Source: Candidatus Bathyarchaeota archaeon (GTDB lineage: Archaea; Thermoproteota; Bathyarchaeia; 40CM-2-53-6; RBG-13-38-9). Taken from it: DNA of 40,659 bases. The translations under genes and the position numbers were made by a program. Shown here piece by piece: positions 18,832 through 26,142 of the stretch. The stretch spans positions 1 to 40,659 of the forward strand of contig JAGTRD010000013.1 in NCBI GenBank assembly GCA_018396915.1. Reading direction: 5' to 3'. The notes beneath the pieces were generated by a model. That model saw nothing but the letters and a program-made list of their open reading frames with translations. It made no database searches and was not told the origin of the DNA. Numbering within the stretch: position 1 is the stretch's first letter; each line of letters starts with the position of its first letter.

Positions 18832-19686
18832 TCATGTTCTCGGCCTCAACCTTGGAACTGCCGCCCTCAAAGCTATGGTGTATGGGTGTCGAGGGTTATT
18901 TATGACTTCGAGTGTCGGGCCGAGCTCAACTATCTTACCGAGACGCATAACCGCTATTCTGTCACAGATATACTTAGCAACAGCCAGATCATGCGTTATG
19001 AAGAGATATGTGAGGTTGTATCTATCTTTCAAGTCCAACATCAGATTCAGTAGGTCAGCCCTGATTGAGACGTCGAGCATAGATACCGGCTCATCTGCAA
19101 CTATAAAGGTCGGTCTTATTATCAGGGTCCTCGCTATGGCAACCCTCTGCCTCTCCCCACCACTCAACTCATGTGGGTATCTGTCAACATAATTCTTTGC
19201 GGGTGTGAGCTTAACATCCTCCAAGATCTCAATTATCCTCTCAAACTTATCCCTCTCAGTCAAACCCCTCTCATGAACCTGTAATGGTTCACCTACAATC
19301 TCTCTAACCCTCATCCTTGGATTTATTGAGTCATATGGGTCTTGGAAGATCATTTGCATCCTCCTCCTAAACTCTCTGATTCTGAATTGCTCCTTAACAG
19401 CTGTGAAGTCAGCTCCTTCAAAATAGATCCTGCCACTGTCTGGTTCTTCGAGTCTGAGAAGTAGCCTTCCAAGGGTTGTCTTGCCGCTTCCGCTCTCACC
19501 GACTAAACCTAATACTTCACCTTTCAAGATGTCAAGTGAGACGTCGTCGACTGCCCTTATCTGTTCCCCCTTCCCTCTTATAGTCTGGAGTAGGCTGCCT
19601 GAGGTTCTGAAAGTCTTTTTGAGGTTTTGGGCTCTCACTATCGCCTCGAAGAGTTTCACCCTCCCTAATATATGTGGCATGCACAT
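18832..19686 (-). CDS. oppF: Oligopeptide/dipeptide ABC transporter ATP-binding protein, OppF/DppF-like
   Basis: 284 residues. Walker A is GESGSGKTT, the Q-loop IFQDPYDSINPRM is typical of the OppF group, the signature is LSGGERQRVAIAR, Walker B is FIVADEP and the H-loop is FITHDLAVA. It ends soon after the HPYTIALRAAVP motif and lacks the usual C-terminal tail of about 40 residues with its Cys cluster, which OppD upstream retains. It overlaps oppD by 22 bases. With oppD it should power the importer encoded divergently at 20916-25210. The gene symbol denotes the family role, not a proven substrate. Confidence 0.9.
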   Translation of the reverse strand: MCMPHILGRVKLFEAIVRAQNLKKTFRTSGSLLQTIRGKGEQIRAVDDVSLDILKGEVLGLVGESGSGKTTLGRLLLRLEEPDSGRIYFEGADFTAVKEQFRIREFRRRMQMIFQDPYDSINPRMRVREIVGEPLQVHERGLTERDKFERIIEILEDVKLTPAKNYVDRYPHELSGGERQRVAIARTLIIRPTFIVADEPVSMLDVSIRADLLNLMLDLKDRYNLTYLFITHDLAVAKYICDRIAVMRLGKIVELGPTLEVINNPRHPYTIALRAAVPRLRPRT

Positions 19687-20654
19687 AGATGCCTATCCCC
19701 AACCTCTATGAGCTTGGGATCCTCCTCCAAACATCTCTTGCCTCTTGAATCGCATCTTGGATAGAATGGGCAGCCGAGGCCAGTTGCCTGCCAATTAGAA
19801 CCTAGGCTTGGGACTGGTCTGAGCTTGACCCTGGGCCCTTCGATGTCGGGATAAGCTTCTAGAAGCGCCCTTGTGTATGGGTGGGCTGGATGTGTGAGGA
19901 TTTTTTTCGTAGGCGCTTCCTCCACTATCCTCCCAGCATACATTACTGCAACCCTCTCACAGAGCTCTGAGATGATGGAGAGGTCGTGAGTTATGAGGAT
20001 GAGTGATAGGTTGAATCTTTTCTTCGAATCTTCCAGAACCTTAAGCACTCCTGCTTGAGTTATCACGTCAAGTCCTGTTGTAGGTTCGTCCGCTATGAGT
20101 AGGCTTGGATTGCAGGCTAGGGCCATTGCTATCATGGCCCTCTGTTTCATGCCGCCACTGAACTGGTGGGGGTAGTCCCTTGCTCTGCTTCTGGGTATTC
20201 CAACATTCTCCAGAAGCGCTTCAGCCCTCTCGAAAGCCTCCTCAACTGTAACATCTTCATGGGTGAGTATTGCCTCAACTATCTGCCTGTTCACCCTATG
20301 TACTGGTGTGAGGGAGTTCATTGTTGCCTGTGGGACTATCGCTATTCTTCGCCATCTGAACCTACTCCTAAACTCCTCCTCAGCAATTTTGAGAATGTCC
20401 TCACCTTCGAAGAGGATTCTACCCATCAAAATCTCCGCATTGGAGGGTAGGATTCTTAATATGGTGTTGGCCAGGGTTGATTTTCCTGAGCCTGACTCAC
20501 CCGCTAAACCGAAGGCTTCACCGCGGTCGACTACTAGTGTGACCCCATCAACAGCCCTCACAGGAAACTTCTCAGTCACATACCGGACTGTTAAGGAATC
20601 TACCTCTAAGATATGTTCAGCCTTCATGTCAGGGGTGGGCACTTGACGTCTCAC
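19665..20654 (-). CDS. oppD: Oligopeptide/dipeptide ABC transporter ATP-binding protein, OppD/DppD-like
   Basis: 329 residues. Walker A is GESGSGKST, the Q-loop region is [13 protein letters not shown], the signature is [13 protein letters not shown], Walker B is LLIADEP and the H-loop is LITHDLSII. The C-terminal oligo/HPY domain ([15 protein letters not shown]) is followed by four cysteines ([20 protein letters not shown]), the cluster seen in OppD/DppD proteins. An in-frame ATG nine residues in (MKAEHILEV) is an alternative start that fits family length better. It is transcribed away from the binding-protein gene, sharing the 20655-20915 regulatory gap. Confidence 0.9.
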
Positions 20655-20915: not shown

Positions 20916-22763
20916 ATGTCAAGATTGTTTCGTAGCTACGCTGTCTTACTCATAGTCTGCGTAACCCTCAATACATTCCATATGGGGGTTGCCAGTTCTG
21001 TTCCTGAGAGTTCAAAATATCCTATAAACGGTCCCAGGCTCGATGAGATTCTCTGCGTCTACCACGCCACACCCGAGGCTGCTGTAGCTGCTATTCGTAA
21101 AGGCGACATCGACATCCTCTCAGACATATTCAGACCCTCAGATGTTCATGTTCTATCTGAGGATCCGAATCTGAACATAACTTTCAGCCAGCAGACTCAC
21201 TACTGCTATGTCGCGTTCAATACTCGACGTGAACCTCTGAATGATAAACAATTCAGGAAGGCCCTCGCCCACCTGATTCCCAGGGAAGAGATTGCGAGCA
21301 AACTCTTCGAAGGTATAGTTGTGACCCCTATGCTATACGAGACATCACCCGCCTTCGGGAGATGGCATAATCCCAACGTAGCTACTTATCCTTACAACCC
21401 TACGAGGGCTAGGCAGATACTCTCCTCGGGAGGTTACGGTTGGGATAGGGATGGGAAGTTGATCGGGCCGGACGGCAAGCTTTTGCGTAAAGTCAGTTTC
21501 ATCTCACCAACCCAGGAGGAGGCTCCTACCTCATATGAGATAGCTAAGCTCACAGTTGAGGAGATGAAGAAGATCGGCTTAGATGTTTACCAGGAGCCTG
21601 TATCCTTCGACTCACTATTGACCAGGGTTCTGACTGAGAGGAGCTTCGACATATACTTCCTATGCGTCTCAAACCTAGGTAAGTATCCCAGATGGCTATA
21701 CGACTACTACCATTCAAGCCTCGATGTTCCAGACGGCGATAATACTCCAGGGGTCAGGGACATGGAGCTCGACAGGCTACTATACACATTCAGGTTTGAG
21801 TCTGAGACTGAGGAGGAAGGTGAACGTGCCGTCTGGAGAGCCCAAGAGGTGATTGCCGACATCGCAGCGAGAGTTCCTGTCTACTCCAGATACCAGATCG
21901 AAGCCTATAGGAAGGGTTTGGAGGGTATGGTGGAGCATAGGGGGGTCGGCTACTTCACCTCAGGAGCCTTCTGGACATACCTCAACCTTAGCAGGGTAGG
22001 GTTGCCGGCTGGTGGAAAGGTGAAGGTCGATGTTGGGGGGAGGGTCAGAACCCTCAACCCACTCTACGGTTCTGGAGCCTACGAGCAGAAGATAATAACG
22101 TTGATTTATGACTCCCTACTCGCGTCGGACCCACAGACCGGTGAGATCGTACCTTACTTGGCTGAGGGTTGGAAGATACAGAATCTTATGGTAGGCAAGT
22201 CTAAGGTTCAGAAGATAACCTTCAAACTTGCCCGAAACGTCACCTGGCATGACGGTGAACCTCTCACCTCTGCAGACATACGCTTCTCAATGGAGTATAT
22301 TAAGCAGAATAGGGTCCCAGCCTTCATATCTTCAATTGAGAGGGTGATCAATGTCTCAGACCCAGACCCATACACTCTGGAGGTTACAATGAACGGAACG
22401 AGCTTCTTCAACCTCATAGATGTCGGAGGTATCGTAATCATTCCTAAGCATATTTGGAAGGATGTATCTGACTGGAGGACATTTCAGCCTGATAGGGAAC
22501 CCCATCCAAAAGTCAAAGGTTTGACCAAGATGGTCGGTACAGGCCCTTTCATACTCGCAGAAGAGAAGCCTGGAGAATTTTGGAGGTTGAGAGCAAACCC
22601 CAACTATTTCAAGAGGTTCCCAGCCGTCAAAACGCCAGTCGAAGGTGTAGGGTTGGAAGAGTGGTCCCTAAACCTTAAAACACTCAGTCTCATCGCCATC
22701 CCAATATTGCTAGTCTTGATTGGCTACTTAATGCTGAGGAGAAGGGTCAGTAGAAGAATTTAG
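20916..22763 (+). CDS. Circularly permuted family 5 extracellular solute-binding protein, membrane anchored
   Basis: 615 residues from ATG 20916. Residues 1-28 are a signal peptide (RLFRSYAVLLIVCVTLNTF). Then comes what is normally the C-terminal half of SBP_bac_5 proteins: IRKGDIDIL, the YVAFNTRREPLNDKQFRKAL block (near 101), Y-N-P-T-R-A-R-Q-I-L-S-S-G-G-Y and the closing VPVYSRY. At residue 376 the normal N-terminal half begins: RTLNPLYG, LIYDSL, PYLAEGW, the family hallmark WHDGEPLTSADIRFS (444) and VGTGPFIL (541), then ANPNYFKRFP. A hydrophobic helix (about 590-608) and RRRVSRRI end the protein. It probably captures peptides or similar solutes for OppBC. ATG 20916 is chosen because it places the signal peptide at the N-terminus; the frame is open back to TTG 20832. 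Confidence 0.87.
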   Translation: MSRLFRSYAVLLIVCVTLNTFHMGVASSVPESSKYPINGPRLDEILCVYHATPEAAVAAIRKGDIDILSDIFRPSDVHVLSEDPNLNITFSQQTHYCYVAFNTRREPLNDKQFRKALAHLIPREEIASKLFEGIVVTPMLYETSPAFGRWHNPNVATYPYNPTRARQILSSGGYGWDRDGKLIGPDGKLLRKVSFISPTQEEAPTSYEIAKLTVEEMKKIGLDVYQEPVSFDSLLTRVLTERSFDIYFLCVSNLGKYPRWLYDYYHSSLDVPDGDNTPGVRDMELDRLLYTFRFESETEEEGERAVWRAQEVIADIAARVPVYSRYQIEAYRKGLEGMVEHRGVGYFTSGAFWTYLNLSRVGLPAGGKVKVDVGGRVRTLNPLYGSGAYEQKIITLIYDSLLASDPQTGEIVPYLAEGWKIQNLMVGKSKVQKITFKLARNVTWHDGEPLTSADIRFSMEYIKQNRVPAFISSIERVINVSDPDPYTLEVTMNGTSFFNLIDVGGIVIIPKHIWKDVSDWRTFQPDREPHPKVKGLTKMVGTGPFILAEEKPGEFWRLRANPNYFKRFPAVKTPVEGVGLEEWSLNLKTLSLIAIPILLVLIGYLMLRRRVSRRI

Positions 22764-22780: not shown

Positions 22781-23767
22781 GTGGGTTTCAAGGCTTACTT
22801 TGCAAGGAGACTCATAAACACAGTCATAGTTGTGTTTGTGACTGTGACCCTCCAATTTTTCATCTTCAGGATCATGCCAGGAAACCCACTCGCACACTTC
22901 ATCAGCCCAAACTTTCCTTTGGAGTCACGTAGGGCTCTCATGGAATTGTGGGGTTTGGACAAACCGGTGCATGAACAGTTTATAACCTATCTCTCCAACC
23001 TCTTCACCGGCAAGCTTGGCATCTCTTTCATATCCCAAAGGTATGTTATCGACGAGGTTCTTGAACGCCTCCCAAATACAATCCTTCTGATGGGCTCATC
23101 AACGACCCTCATGATAGTGTTAGGTATCCATCTAGGTGTCTTGGCCGGTTCAAGGAGGGGTTCGAAGACTGATGTGGCGAGTGTGACCTTTGGCCTGTTA
23201 ACTCAAGGTTTACCGGTGTTCTTTCTCGGTCTGCTTCTTATGCTTACTTTCTCCTACTATCTTCCAGTAGTAACTGGTGGGCTCATCAACTTCCCAGTCG
23301 CAGGAACAGTCTCCAGGCCTCCACCACCAGACCTTCCAGGATATGTTATGGATGTGCTCTGGCACCTTACCCTGCCGATGGTGACCCTCGTCATAATAAG
23401 TTTCGGAGGTTACACCCTGATCGTCAGGAGCCTGATGATAGATGTCATGGCTCAAGACTATATCTTGACCGCGAAGGCGAAGGGTCTGCCTGAGAGAAGC
23501 ATAATATATGGGCATGGATTGAGGAGCATCCTCCCACCTATATCGACAATGGTTGGACTCAGCCTCTCAGGTATCGTCGGAGGAGCTGTCATCACCGAGA
23601 CGATATTCAGTTGGCACGGTATAGGCCGCTACTTGTATGAGGCTGTCTTGCAGAACGACTATCCTGTGATGCAGGGAACCTTCTTCCTACTCAGCATGGT
23701 AACCATCATCGCCAACCTGGTCGTCGACCTCATATATGGACTACTGGATCCGAGGATACGTTACTGA
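22781..23767 (+). CDS. oppB: Oligopeptide/dipeptide ABC transporter permease, OppB/DppB-like
   Basis: 328 residues, with the N-terminal RRLINTVIVVFVTVTLQFFIFRIMPGNP opening typical of DppB/OppB, about six membrane helices, and the EAA-like cytoplasmic loop (AKAKGLPERSIIYGHGLRS) that docks on the ATPase. It ends in the family LIYGLLDPRIRY. The start is GTG 22781, supported by GAGGAG eight bases upstream. It lies 17 bases after the binding-protein gene and is followed directly by oppC, so the three form one operon. Confidence 0.93.
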   Translation: MGFKAYFARRLINTVIVVFVTVTLQFFIFRIMPGNPLAHFISPNFPLESRRALMELWGLDKPVHEQFITYLSNLFTGKLGISFISQRYVIDEVLERLPNTILLMGSSTTLMIVLGIHLGVLAGSRRGSKTDVASVTFGLLTQGLPVFFLGLLLMLTFSYYLPVVTGGLINFPVAGTVSRPPPPDLPGYVMDVLWHLTLPMVTLVIISFGGYTLIVRSLMIDVMAQDYILTAKAKGLPERSIIYGHGLRSILPPISTMVGLSLSGIVGGAVITETIFSWHGIGRYLYEAVLQNDYPVMQGTFFLLSMVTIIANLVVDLIYGLLDPRIRY

Positions 23768-23770
23768 GGT

Positions 23771-25210
23771 GTGAGGAACAGATTGTCAAGGGTTCGTCTG
23801 CGCGAGTTCTGGTCAGCATACAAGAATAGTAGGCTCGGAATCTCAGGTCTGATTATCCTGATCTTCTTCATATTTGTCGCATTCACCGCGCCCCTCCTCA
23901 CACCATACGATCCTATACGGGACAAGTTCTTGGCTGAAGGATCAGCCCTACCAGCCTGGTTCAAAATATTCCCCCAGTACAGCGGCCTACCTGAGACAAT
24001 GGATTTCACCGTCCAATCTGAGGTGGATTGTGCCGGCTGGAGTTTCAAGTTCGAAGGGCCTGTCACCTTAAATATACAGGAGCCTTTAACATTCACCTTC
24101 AAAGCAGCTGACAGGGTAGGTGATTCAGGCGTCGCCGAATTCACTCACAAGTTCAACTATGAATATTCGCCGCCTTACAGTTTCAGGGTGAACATGAGCC
24201 TCCAATTTCTGGATATAAATAACGTCACATATTCAGCTGAGCTCCTCATATTAACCCCTGAATATGAATCTTTCCTGGTTTGGAGCATCGGCCCGAGCAG
24301 GAGACCTCTTGAGCCTCCGAACATAAGCCTTGACTCGAAGGGGATTCCTTTCGAGTTAAAGTCCAGGATGGGACTCGAATGGCATAGGAATGTTGCTGAA
24401 CATATATTCTCAAAGAGGGGCCCCTACACATTAATTTTAAGATTCAGGGTGAATGGCGATTCAGGTGGGTCATCCACATTAACTATTTCTCTCGGTAAGC
24501 TGGTCCTGCATGTCCCTGGAAGGGTCCATGGGGTCCTGGGCACAGATCATTTGGGTTCAGACATCTTCTCTCAGCTTCTATACGGGTCTAGAGTATCCCT
24601 TATGATAGGTGTCAGCGCAGCCCTCATCTCCGTTATCATAGGTCTCCTATGTGGGCTCGTTGCAGGCTACTATGGGAGGATTATCGATGAGGCTGCTATG
24701 AGGCTCGTAGATGTGCTTCTAGTACTTCCCGGTTTACCTATGCTTATGATTCTAAGCAGCCTCTTCGGAAGGAGCATATGGAACATAGTCTTTCTACTCG
24801 GTGTCCTGAGTTGGCCGGGATTCGCAAGGGTTGTGAGAGCCAGAGTCTTACAGTTGAAGACAGCGGCTTTCATTGAGGCTTCAAGGGCAATAGGCTCATC
24901 TGGATCGCATATAATTTTCAAACATCTACTCCCAAACGTTCTCCCCCTGGCCTATGCAACTGTCGCGTTGTCTATTCCTGGGGCGATTATGGCTGAGGCA
25001 GCTCTCAGCTTCCTTGCTTTAGGCGATCCAGATACACCCTCCTGGGGTAGGATGTTCTATTCAGCTCATTCCTTCGGTGCCTTCCAGAGGTTGGCTTGGT
25101 GGTGGGTAGTTCCTCCTGGTGTAGCTATAACTCTACTATCCCTCTCATTCGTCTTTATTGGGACGACGATAGATGAGGTTCTGAATCCAAGGCTTCGTGT
25201 TGTGAGATAA
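23771..25210 (+). CDS. oppC: Oligopeptide/dipeptide ABC transporter permease, OppC/DppC-like, with inserted ectodomain
   Basis: 479 residues, against about 290-300 in ordinary DppC/OppC. Helix 1 (about 24-44) ends in the usual LLTPYDP. The conserved LGTDHLGSDIFSQLLYGSRVSL, normally some 40 residues later, comes only at 257. The roughly 190 residues between are beta-rich, with regular short strands such as FSFKFEG-like and TLTISLGKL runs, and should lie outside the membrane. Five more helices and the EAA loop (EASRAIGSSGSHIIFKHLLPN) follow normally. The insert may interact with the unusual anchored binding protein encoded upstream. The start is GTG 23771, three bases after the oppB stop, with no clearly separate ribosome binding site. 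Confidence 0.92.
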   Translation: MRNRLSRVRLREFWSAYKNSRLGISGLIILIFFIFVAFTAPLLTPYDPIRDKFLAEGSALPAWFKIFPQYSGLPETMDFTVQSEVDCAGWSFKFEGPVTLNIQEPLTFTFKAADRVGDSGVAEFTHKFNYEYSPPYSFRVNMSLQFLDINNVTYSAELLILTPEYESFLVWSIGPSRRPLEPPNISLDSKGIPFELKSRMGLEWHRNVAEHIFSKRGPYTLILRFRVNGDSGGSSTLTISLGKLVLHVPGRVHGVLGTDHLGSDIFSQLLYGSRVSLMIGVSAALISVIIGLLCGLVAGYYGRIIDEAAMRLVDVLLVLPGLPMLMILSSLFGRSIWNIVFLLGVLSWPGFARVVRARVLQLKTAAFIEASRAIGSSGSHIIFKHLLPNVLPLAYATVALSIPGAIMAEAALSFLALGDPDTPSWGRMFYSAHSFGAFQRLAWWWVVPPGVAITLLSLSFVFIGTTIDEVLNPRLRVVR

Positions 25211-25287: not shown

Positions 25288-25743
25288 ATGGACGACACAT
25301 ACAAGGAAACCGTTCTCAAACTGATATGGGAGAATGAAGAGGAAGGGGTGATTGCAAGCCAACTCCACAAACATTTGAAGGCCCTCATGAAGGATAAGGC
25401 AGTGTCTAGAGCAGCTATCTTAAGCTACCTCAACGACCTCTGCAAACAAGGTATCCTAAACTTTAAGGAGGAGACTTGCAGGGGTGGACGTAGAAAGAGA
25501 TACTTCCCAAGAATGAGCAGGGTCGACTATGAGAAAGAAAATGTCAGGGGAACCTTACAAAAGCTACTGAAATCTCATCCCAAATACACGATAGAGGTTC
25601 TCACCGAACTGCTCAAAGGTGGAGAATTCGACCCACAAGTCTCGAGGGCTCTATTAGGATACTTTATGGTTAGGGACGAGTTGACCTACCATACTTTGGA
25701 GGAGGCTATTTGGGGTTCAGGCAACCCCATACATAGGTATTGA
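25288..25743 (+). CDS. Winged-helix DNA-binding protein
   Basis: 151 residues. Residues 5-75 fit a winged helix: ETVLKLIWENEEEGVIASQLHKHL, then a recognition helix VSRAAILSYLNDLCKQGIL and a basic wing CRGGRRKRYFP. This resembles BlaI/PadR-type regulators of bacterial and archaeal origin. The C-terminal half (KLLKSHPKYTIEVLTELL) is helical and probably dimerises. The 28-bp inverted repeat over its promoter may be its own operator. It is followed three bases later by a small helical protein gene, so the two probably work together. The target genes are unknown; the opp operon immediately upstream is one candidate. Confidence 0.78.
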   Translation: MDDTYKETVLKLIWENEEEGVIASQLHKHLKALMKDKAVSRAAILSYLNDLCKQGILNFKEETCRGGRRKRYFPRMSRVDYEKENVRGTLQKLLKSHPKYTIEVLTELLKGGEFDPQVSRALLGYFMVRDELTYHTLEEAIWGSGNPIHRY

Positions 25744-25746
25744 ACC

Positions 25747-26142
25747 ATGAATATGATGGCTGGAGGGAGATTCGGAGTTAATCTTCATTCATTCGACATC
25801 GATGTAGAGGATGGAGGTTTGAGTGAGAACTTCGATACTGCAGTGTCCTCGGCTATTGAGATGACCCTCCGCCTCATACTCGGTGATAGAACTGCCGAAG
25901 CCCTCTACTCATACATCTTAAGAGAGTTCAATATTGACAGGAAGAGTCTCGCCTCCAATATCCAAATCTTATGCAAGGTCTTGCACGATATCTTCGGGGA
26001 TGGTGGTAGGGTTGTTCAGAGGGTTATAGTTCGTAGCTTATGCGAAAATTTTAACATTGAGTACGGCGCACTACCTACAGATGACCTTCCATCAGCATTA
26101 GTTGAACTCCGCAGACTCAGACATCCACCTATGCCTCAATAA
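25747..26142 (+). CDS. Small helical protein co-transcribed with the winged-helix regulator
   Basis: 131 residues. Residues 40-105 carry a helical segment, LGDRTAEALYSYILREFNI through IFGDGGRVVQRVIVRSLCENFNIEY. This resembles a short archaeal helical domain that recurs in regulatory proteins (G-x-x-A-x-A-L-Y-x-Y pattern, DUF3227/NitrOD5-like; from memory and tentative). No membrane segment or metal motif is seen. It begins three bases after the regulator stop and converges on the KaiC-like gene with a 34-base gap. Confidence 0.68.
   Translation: MNMMAGGRFGVNLHSFDIDVEDGGLSENFDTAVSSAIEMTLRLILGDRTAEALYSYILREFNIDRKSLASNIQILCKVLHDIFGDGGRVVQRVIVRSLCENFNIEYGALPTDDLPSALVELRRLRHPPMPQ

Follow-up and report, generated by a model that had tools for sequence, protein, structure and literature searches.

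The locus raises the question whether a 615-amino-acid protein (P0001), encoded on the forward strand of the 40,659-nucleotide stretch of DNA analysed here (the window; Table 1), is a functional solute-binding protein (SBP) of the SBP_bac_5 family in which the parts of the domain have changed places. A preliminary description had claimed that the halves of a family 5 protein were reordered and that every expected segment occurred once. Both claims were borne out by Pfam and by an independent 552-position profile derived from 17 canonical archaeal proteins of the family.

Table 1. Features of the permuted SBP gene and its neighbours in the window; m denotes positions of the 552-position profile.
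Feature	Coordinates	Strand	Basis and remarks
Permuted SBP_bac_5 solute-binding protein, 615 aa (P0001)	20916..22763	+	Pfam and own profile; ATG 20916, stop 22761-22763
Predicted signal peptide / N-terminal hydrophobic segment, residues ~1-27, MSRLFRSYAVLLIVCVTLNTFHMGVAS	20916..20996	+	Sequence reading only
Former C-terminal part, now first; residues 38-344 = m236-525	21027..21947	+	Pfam and own profile
Internal junction, old C- to old N-terminus; residues 345-364, GYFTSGAFWTYLNLSRVGLP, then AGGKVKVDV	21948..22007	+	Alignment
Former N-terminal part, now second; residues 365-572 = m42-241; TLNPL, LAEGW, WHDGEP, GTGPF, NPNYF	22008..22631	+	Pfam and own profile
C-terminal transmembrane anchor, residues ~585-609, then basic tail RRRVSRRI	22668..22742	+	Hydropathy maximum, residues 584-607
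DppB/OppB-type permease	22781..23767	+	PF00528 and PF19300; adjoins SBP in L031-L035, L007, L008
DppC/OppC-type permease, ~240-aa insert between OppC_N and BPD_transp_1	23771..25210	+	PF12911 residues 10-48, PF00528 residues 291-476
Penicillinase-repressor-like winged-helix gene, then 131-aa ORF without Pfam match	25288..26142	+	Directly downstream of importer
OppD-type ATPase, oligo_HPY C-terminal domain, divergent	19665..20654	-	Pfam; same place in L031, L032
OppF-type ATPase, oligo_HPY C-terminal domain, divergent	18832..19686	-	Pfam; same place in L031, L032

In a Pfam search, SBP_bac_5 (PF00496) was the sole family matched by P0001 (197.9 bits, E 3.5e-58; gathering cut-off 32.4), and no Type I SBP family was found. 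E-values of this size rule out chance. When the halves were profiled separately, as the preliminary description had proposed, model order proved rotated: residues 40-249 corresponded to model positions 146-344 (111 bits alone), followed by residues ~409-570, for which the C-terminal part was searched on its own, corresponding to positions 1-148 (90 bits alone). P0001 thus departs from the canonical N-to-C order of SBP_bac_5 parts by a rotation at model position ~146. The two segments recognized by the 552-position profile (110 and 109 bits; Table 1) together gave full coverage with an overlap of ~6 positions, and no segment was duplicated or missing. Duplication and truncation of the domain were rejected because each region was covered once. 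As a control on the method, canonical proteins left out one at a time were read as canonical in 17 of 17 cases and artificially rotated copies as permuted in 17 of 17. Consistent with these assignments, PDB searches (phmmer and profile) matched the halves of P0001 to solved SBPs in swapped order. P0001 fell below the cut-offs of the NCBIfam equivalogs DppA, NikA, and Opp4A, the last being the best (107.6 vs 650 bits). Judged by sequence comparison, P0001 is a permuted variant of SBP_bac_5 and not a canonical member; whole-domain circular permutation was supported as the only reading that would fit full, single coverage in rotated order, and the equally ordered orthologues and Opp-type operon described below lend it further support. 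The position of the cut given by the preliminary description required slight revision. The domain is indeed opened after NPNYF, but the next strand is LDEILCVYH, which by the usual lobe assignment of the fold lies inside lobe I, and not the first lobe-to-lobe crossover; that crossover, YVAFNTRREPL, comes after the cut and is left uncut.

Homologues with the same order were found, as the preliminary description had suggested looking for, in independently assembled metagenome-assembled genomes (MAGs). Orthologues of P0001 shared 95, 67, 67, 66, 58, and 38% identity with it; the one at 95% belongs to the same genus, those at ~67% represent different genera of its family, the one at 58% comes from a second family within the order, and the one at 38% from yet another genus, and the named records were all Candidatus Bathyarchaeota MAGs. 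Comparison of P0001 with the 95%-identical relative yielded dN 0.022, dS 0.157, and dN/dS 0.14, and residues 345-378, which span the new junction, showed zero nonsynonymous changes relative to L002. The gene is under purifying selection. An assembly or binning artefact, in which two partial SBP genes were misjoined or a tandem array was circularised, might be suspected in a metagenome-type assembly of 42 contigs. Such an artefact was refuted by the independent orthologues, since the same order and junction recur in five or more further assemblies, made in different studies, with a conserved operon and purifying selection across the junction, and we assign it practically no probability. Equally negligible is the notion that the permuted gene is a decayed or non-functional remnant: no evidence in its favour was found, the frame stays open over large evolutionary distances, invariant residues were present across 20 proteins of the same topology, and the measured selection refutes decay. 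In addition, this was the sole SBP_bac_5 gene detected in the source genome (96% complete), whose two Pfam matches both lie inside this ORF.

The gene neighbourhood comprises a complete Opp/Dpp-type set, with SBP, DppB, and DppC on one strand and OppD and OppF on the other; the SBP gene lies 17 nt upstream of the permease genes. This neighbourhood was retained in relatives to the limit of their contigs. The DppC-type permease (479 aa) was kept at full length at 60-91% identity in L031, L032, L034, and L035; its insert of ~240 aa is probably extracellular and might contact the permuted binding protein. The gene pair directly downstream of the importer, a possible regulator, was conserved in L031 at 87-91%. 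In the proposed mechanism, the N-terminal signal would export the permuted SBP and the C-terminal helix would hold it at the membrane, so that the domain would be presented outside, beside DppB/DppC. It would then close on its ligand, probably a peptide or an oligosaccharide, and deliver it to DppB/DppC, with transport driven by OppD/OppF. Some SBPs feed sensors, and the C-terminal membrane helix of P0001 would also suit a tethered ligand receptor or scavenger that is not the delivery subunit of an importer. This alternative was considered improbable: the SBP gene was upstream of DppB/DppC, with OppD/OppF divergent, in all loci with flanks present, no sensor gene was adjacent, and a C-terminal helix also occurs in canonical archaeal SBPs (e.g., L015).

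The distribution of the topology of P0001, here named CP-A, was surveyed in 299 Thermoproteota genomes with a query profile from 20 CP-A-type proteins. Among the matches listed, junction-spanning ones were counted by eye in at least 42 genomes of ~19 family-level groups. Checks with the canonical profile established the rotated order in 48 different ORFs by an automatic rule, and in 49 when L090 was included; this protein was counted as CP-A for its position in the CP-A clade, its late match start having triggered assignment to another type (CP-C, below). CP-A proteins of group f38 were ~770 aa long, with a Ser/Thr-rich stalk and a C-terminal helix. Those of groups f26 and f53 (~820-960 aa), from genomes carrying the archaeal ammonia monooxygenase AmoA, had a diverged, weakly matched second half, in which NP, HHG, IDENT, and SNGPF could be recognized by eye, in order, after the first half. 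A query made of the CP-A junction and the part upstream of it had no plasmid match with coverage of 80% or more, so that outside Thermoproteota CP-A was not observed; this plasmid collection was a small sample, and bacteria and other non-Thermoproteota genomes were represented through plasmids only. In a Bathyarchaeia genome, an SBP_bac_5 domain was also observed inside a 2064-aa open frame (G064:C28:80180-81346).

Three further cut points were encountered. In CP-B, the domain is cut near m372, after a helix ending in LLxxAG. Its hosts were Bathyarchaeia, group f27, haloarchaea (Halorussus, Halostagnicola, Halalkalicoccus, and Haladaptatus), and Alphaproteobacteria (Nitratireductor, WP_113156578.1; Neorhizobium; and Ketogulonicigenium). 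The alphaproteobacterial and haloarchaeal loci (L195:4836-6434 on the forward strand, L196, L201, L192-L194, and L202) were annotated, where at all, just as 'ABC transporter substrate-binding protein'. Each of 51 plasmid records covered 80% or more of the Nitratireductor protein, and the order was checked in seven. CP-C is cut near m279, with ends and starts at exactly neighbouring positions, and occurred in four f3 genomes; a scan of 200 further Thermoproteota genomes gave nothing beyond partial matches at E 1e-60 or better. Among the sampled genomes, CP-C was restricted to a single family of Bathyarchaeia (group f3). A CP-C protein (L103) and a CP-B protein (L106) were 53% identical and are cut at different places. 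Seven f3 genomes (G010, G018, G022, G023, G024, G034, and G035) contained many SBP_bac_5 ORFs of ~800-1,190 aa with large inserts and Cys/Ser/Thr-rich segments, whose Pfam matches were split and weak and in several cases rotated; these long ORFs are a family expansion.

CP-D, cut near m100, was found in two congeneric genomes of group f31 (L208:1028-2749, reverse strand; L209:2-1732, forward strand); these ORFs carry a Tat-like RR signal. In CP-D the old termini are joined by about nine residues (KEEGGRIAD). A canonical relative from the same group (L210:1193-2914, forward strand) showed 61% identity to the body and 70% to the transplanted end, and L208 and L210 share an N-terminal stalk type while differing in domain order. 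The CP-D permutation is young.

A maximum-likelihood tree (LG+C20, SH-aLRT) was computed from 83 rows restored to canonical order, with CP-D left out. A single branch (SH-aLRT 99) separated all 32 CP-A rows from the rest, corresponding to one topology change. CP-B needed four changes, three of them forced by starred branches, and CP-C and one CP-B protein were nested inside a canonical group. In all, this tree required no fewer than six changes, compared with a mean of 39 after shuffling; as the tree is unrooted and has many weak deep branches, this count of origins is a minimum and not a firm history. CP-D adds at least one further event. These results indicated that circular permutation recurred in the SBP_bac_5 fold, a conclusion that is well supported, and that at least four different cut points exist in a family in which they seem so far to have passed unremarked. 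A broader reading, that several independent events at these four or more cuts took place in Archaea and some Bacteria, that CP-A arose early and became fixed in much of Thermoproteota, ammonia oxidisers included, and that the permuted form is adaptive because moved chain ends alter tether and hinge, is offered only tentatively; its adaptive part is speculation.

Both natural termini lie in lobe I in structures of DppA and OppA, so the fold can stay intact after their fusion and an opening elsewhere. In P0001, a short conserved junction joins the old C- and N-termini, and the new termini open between NPNYF and the next lobe I strand. Because old and new termini would sit in surface loops, we infer that the permuted SBP retains the usual two-lobed fold as one intact unit. 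With the new ends of CP-A in lobe I and both crossovers continuous, the hinge should still work. An AlphaFold prediction from only six sequences (P0001 and L031-L035) had a pLDDT of 39 and a pTM of 0.35; a search of viral contigs for further alignment rows found none. Permuted proteins can domain-swap, and the junction is short (~20 aa), as would suit a dimer in which a second chain completes lobe I and the halves of one chain do not pack into a single fold. With both termini in lobe I, however, a short link suffices, as the even shorter CP-D junction illustrates, and a swapped dimer was given little weight.

For the origin of the permuted domain, the most economical route would start from a mature domain duplicated in tandem and in frame, with secretion signal and tail retained; copy one would then have lost its first half and copy two its second. 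The pair L208/L210, with its shared stalk type and different order, fits this route; no duplication intermediates were present among the proteins found. Fusion of tandem genes was also considered as the source of the order in P0001 and rejected. Taken together, P0001 is interpreted, with a probability of roughly 0.88, as the extracytoplasmic substrate-binding protein of an Opp/Dpp-type importer whose SBP_bac_5 domain is circularly permuted and whose folding, tethering, delivery, and origin are as proposed above.

A major transporter family thus carries several natural permutations, which stay hidden because domain databases return two fragmentary hits and a generic product name. Templates and alignments in canonical order misplace half of such proteins, including those of ammonia-oxidising archaea. 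The canonical and permuted pair L210/L208 offers a naturally occurring test of how a large protein tolerates the rewiring of its chain, and bears on whether membrane tethering drives permutation. Sensor work makes frequent use of engineered permuted SBPs, and the design of fluorescent sensors gains naturally permitted cut sites in cluster C proteins. To our knowledge, few cases of natural circular permutation in large two-lobed binding proteins have been published.

No description of a permuted SBP_bac_5 protein was found in the open full-text literature, and an earlier one in subscription papers or preprints is possible. The best 60 chains of each of three PDB searches were all canonical, and no NCBIfam family searched was specific to, or had, the permuted order. 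With the DppA-OppA-NikA-AppA family (cluster C SBPs; PF00496; PDB 1xoc, 1dpp, and 4oet), P0001 shares all sequence regions, a Pfam score far above cut-off, a predicted signal peptide, and OppB/C/D/F genes; it differs by its rotated order of parts. That a permuted SBP half can fold is reported for Thermotoga maritima ribose-binding protein (PMC9815098); the structures are of permuted halves that derive from a Type I protein and were made to model fold evolution, unlike the natural, full-length P0001. The single natural precedent found in the open literature was TpMglB-2 (Tp0684) of Treponema pallidum, a naturally permuted SBP of 'Type Ic / Cluster Bc', whose type of permutation also occurs in other treponemes and Gram-positives, which is probably envelope-tethered, and for which tethering was suggested to have favoured permutation (PMC4990184). 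Like P0001, it is a natural circular permutation of the SBP of an ABC importer; the resemblance is in kind only, as TpMglB-2 is a glucose-binding protein of Type I / cluster B and fold type, family, and cut point all differ. TpMglB-2 is therefore a functional precedent, and not a relative, of P0001.
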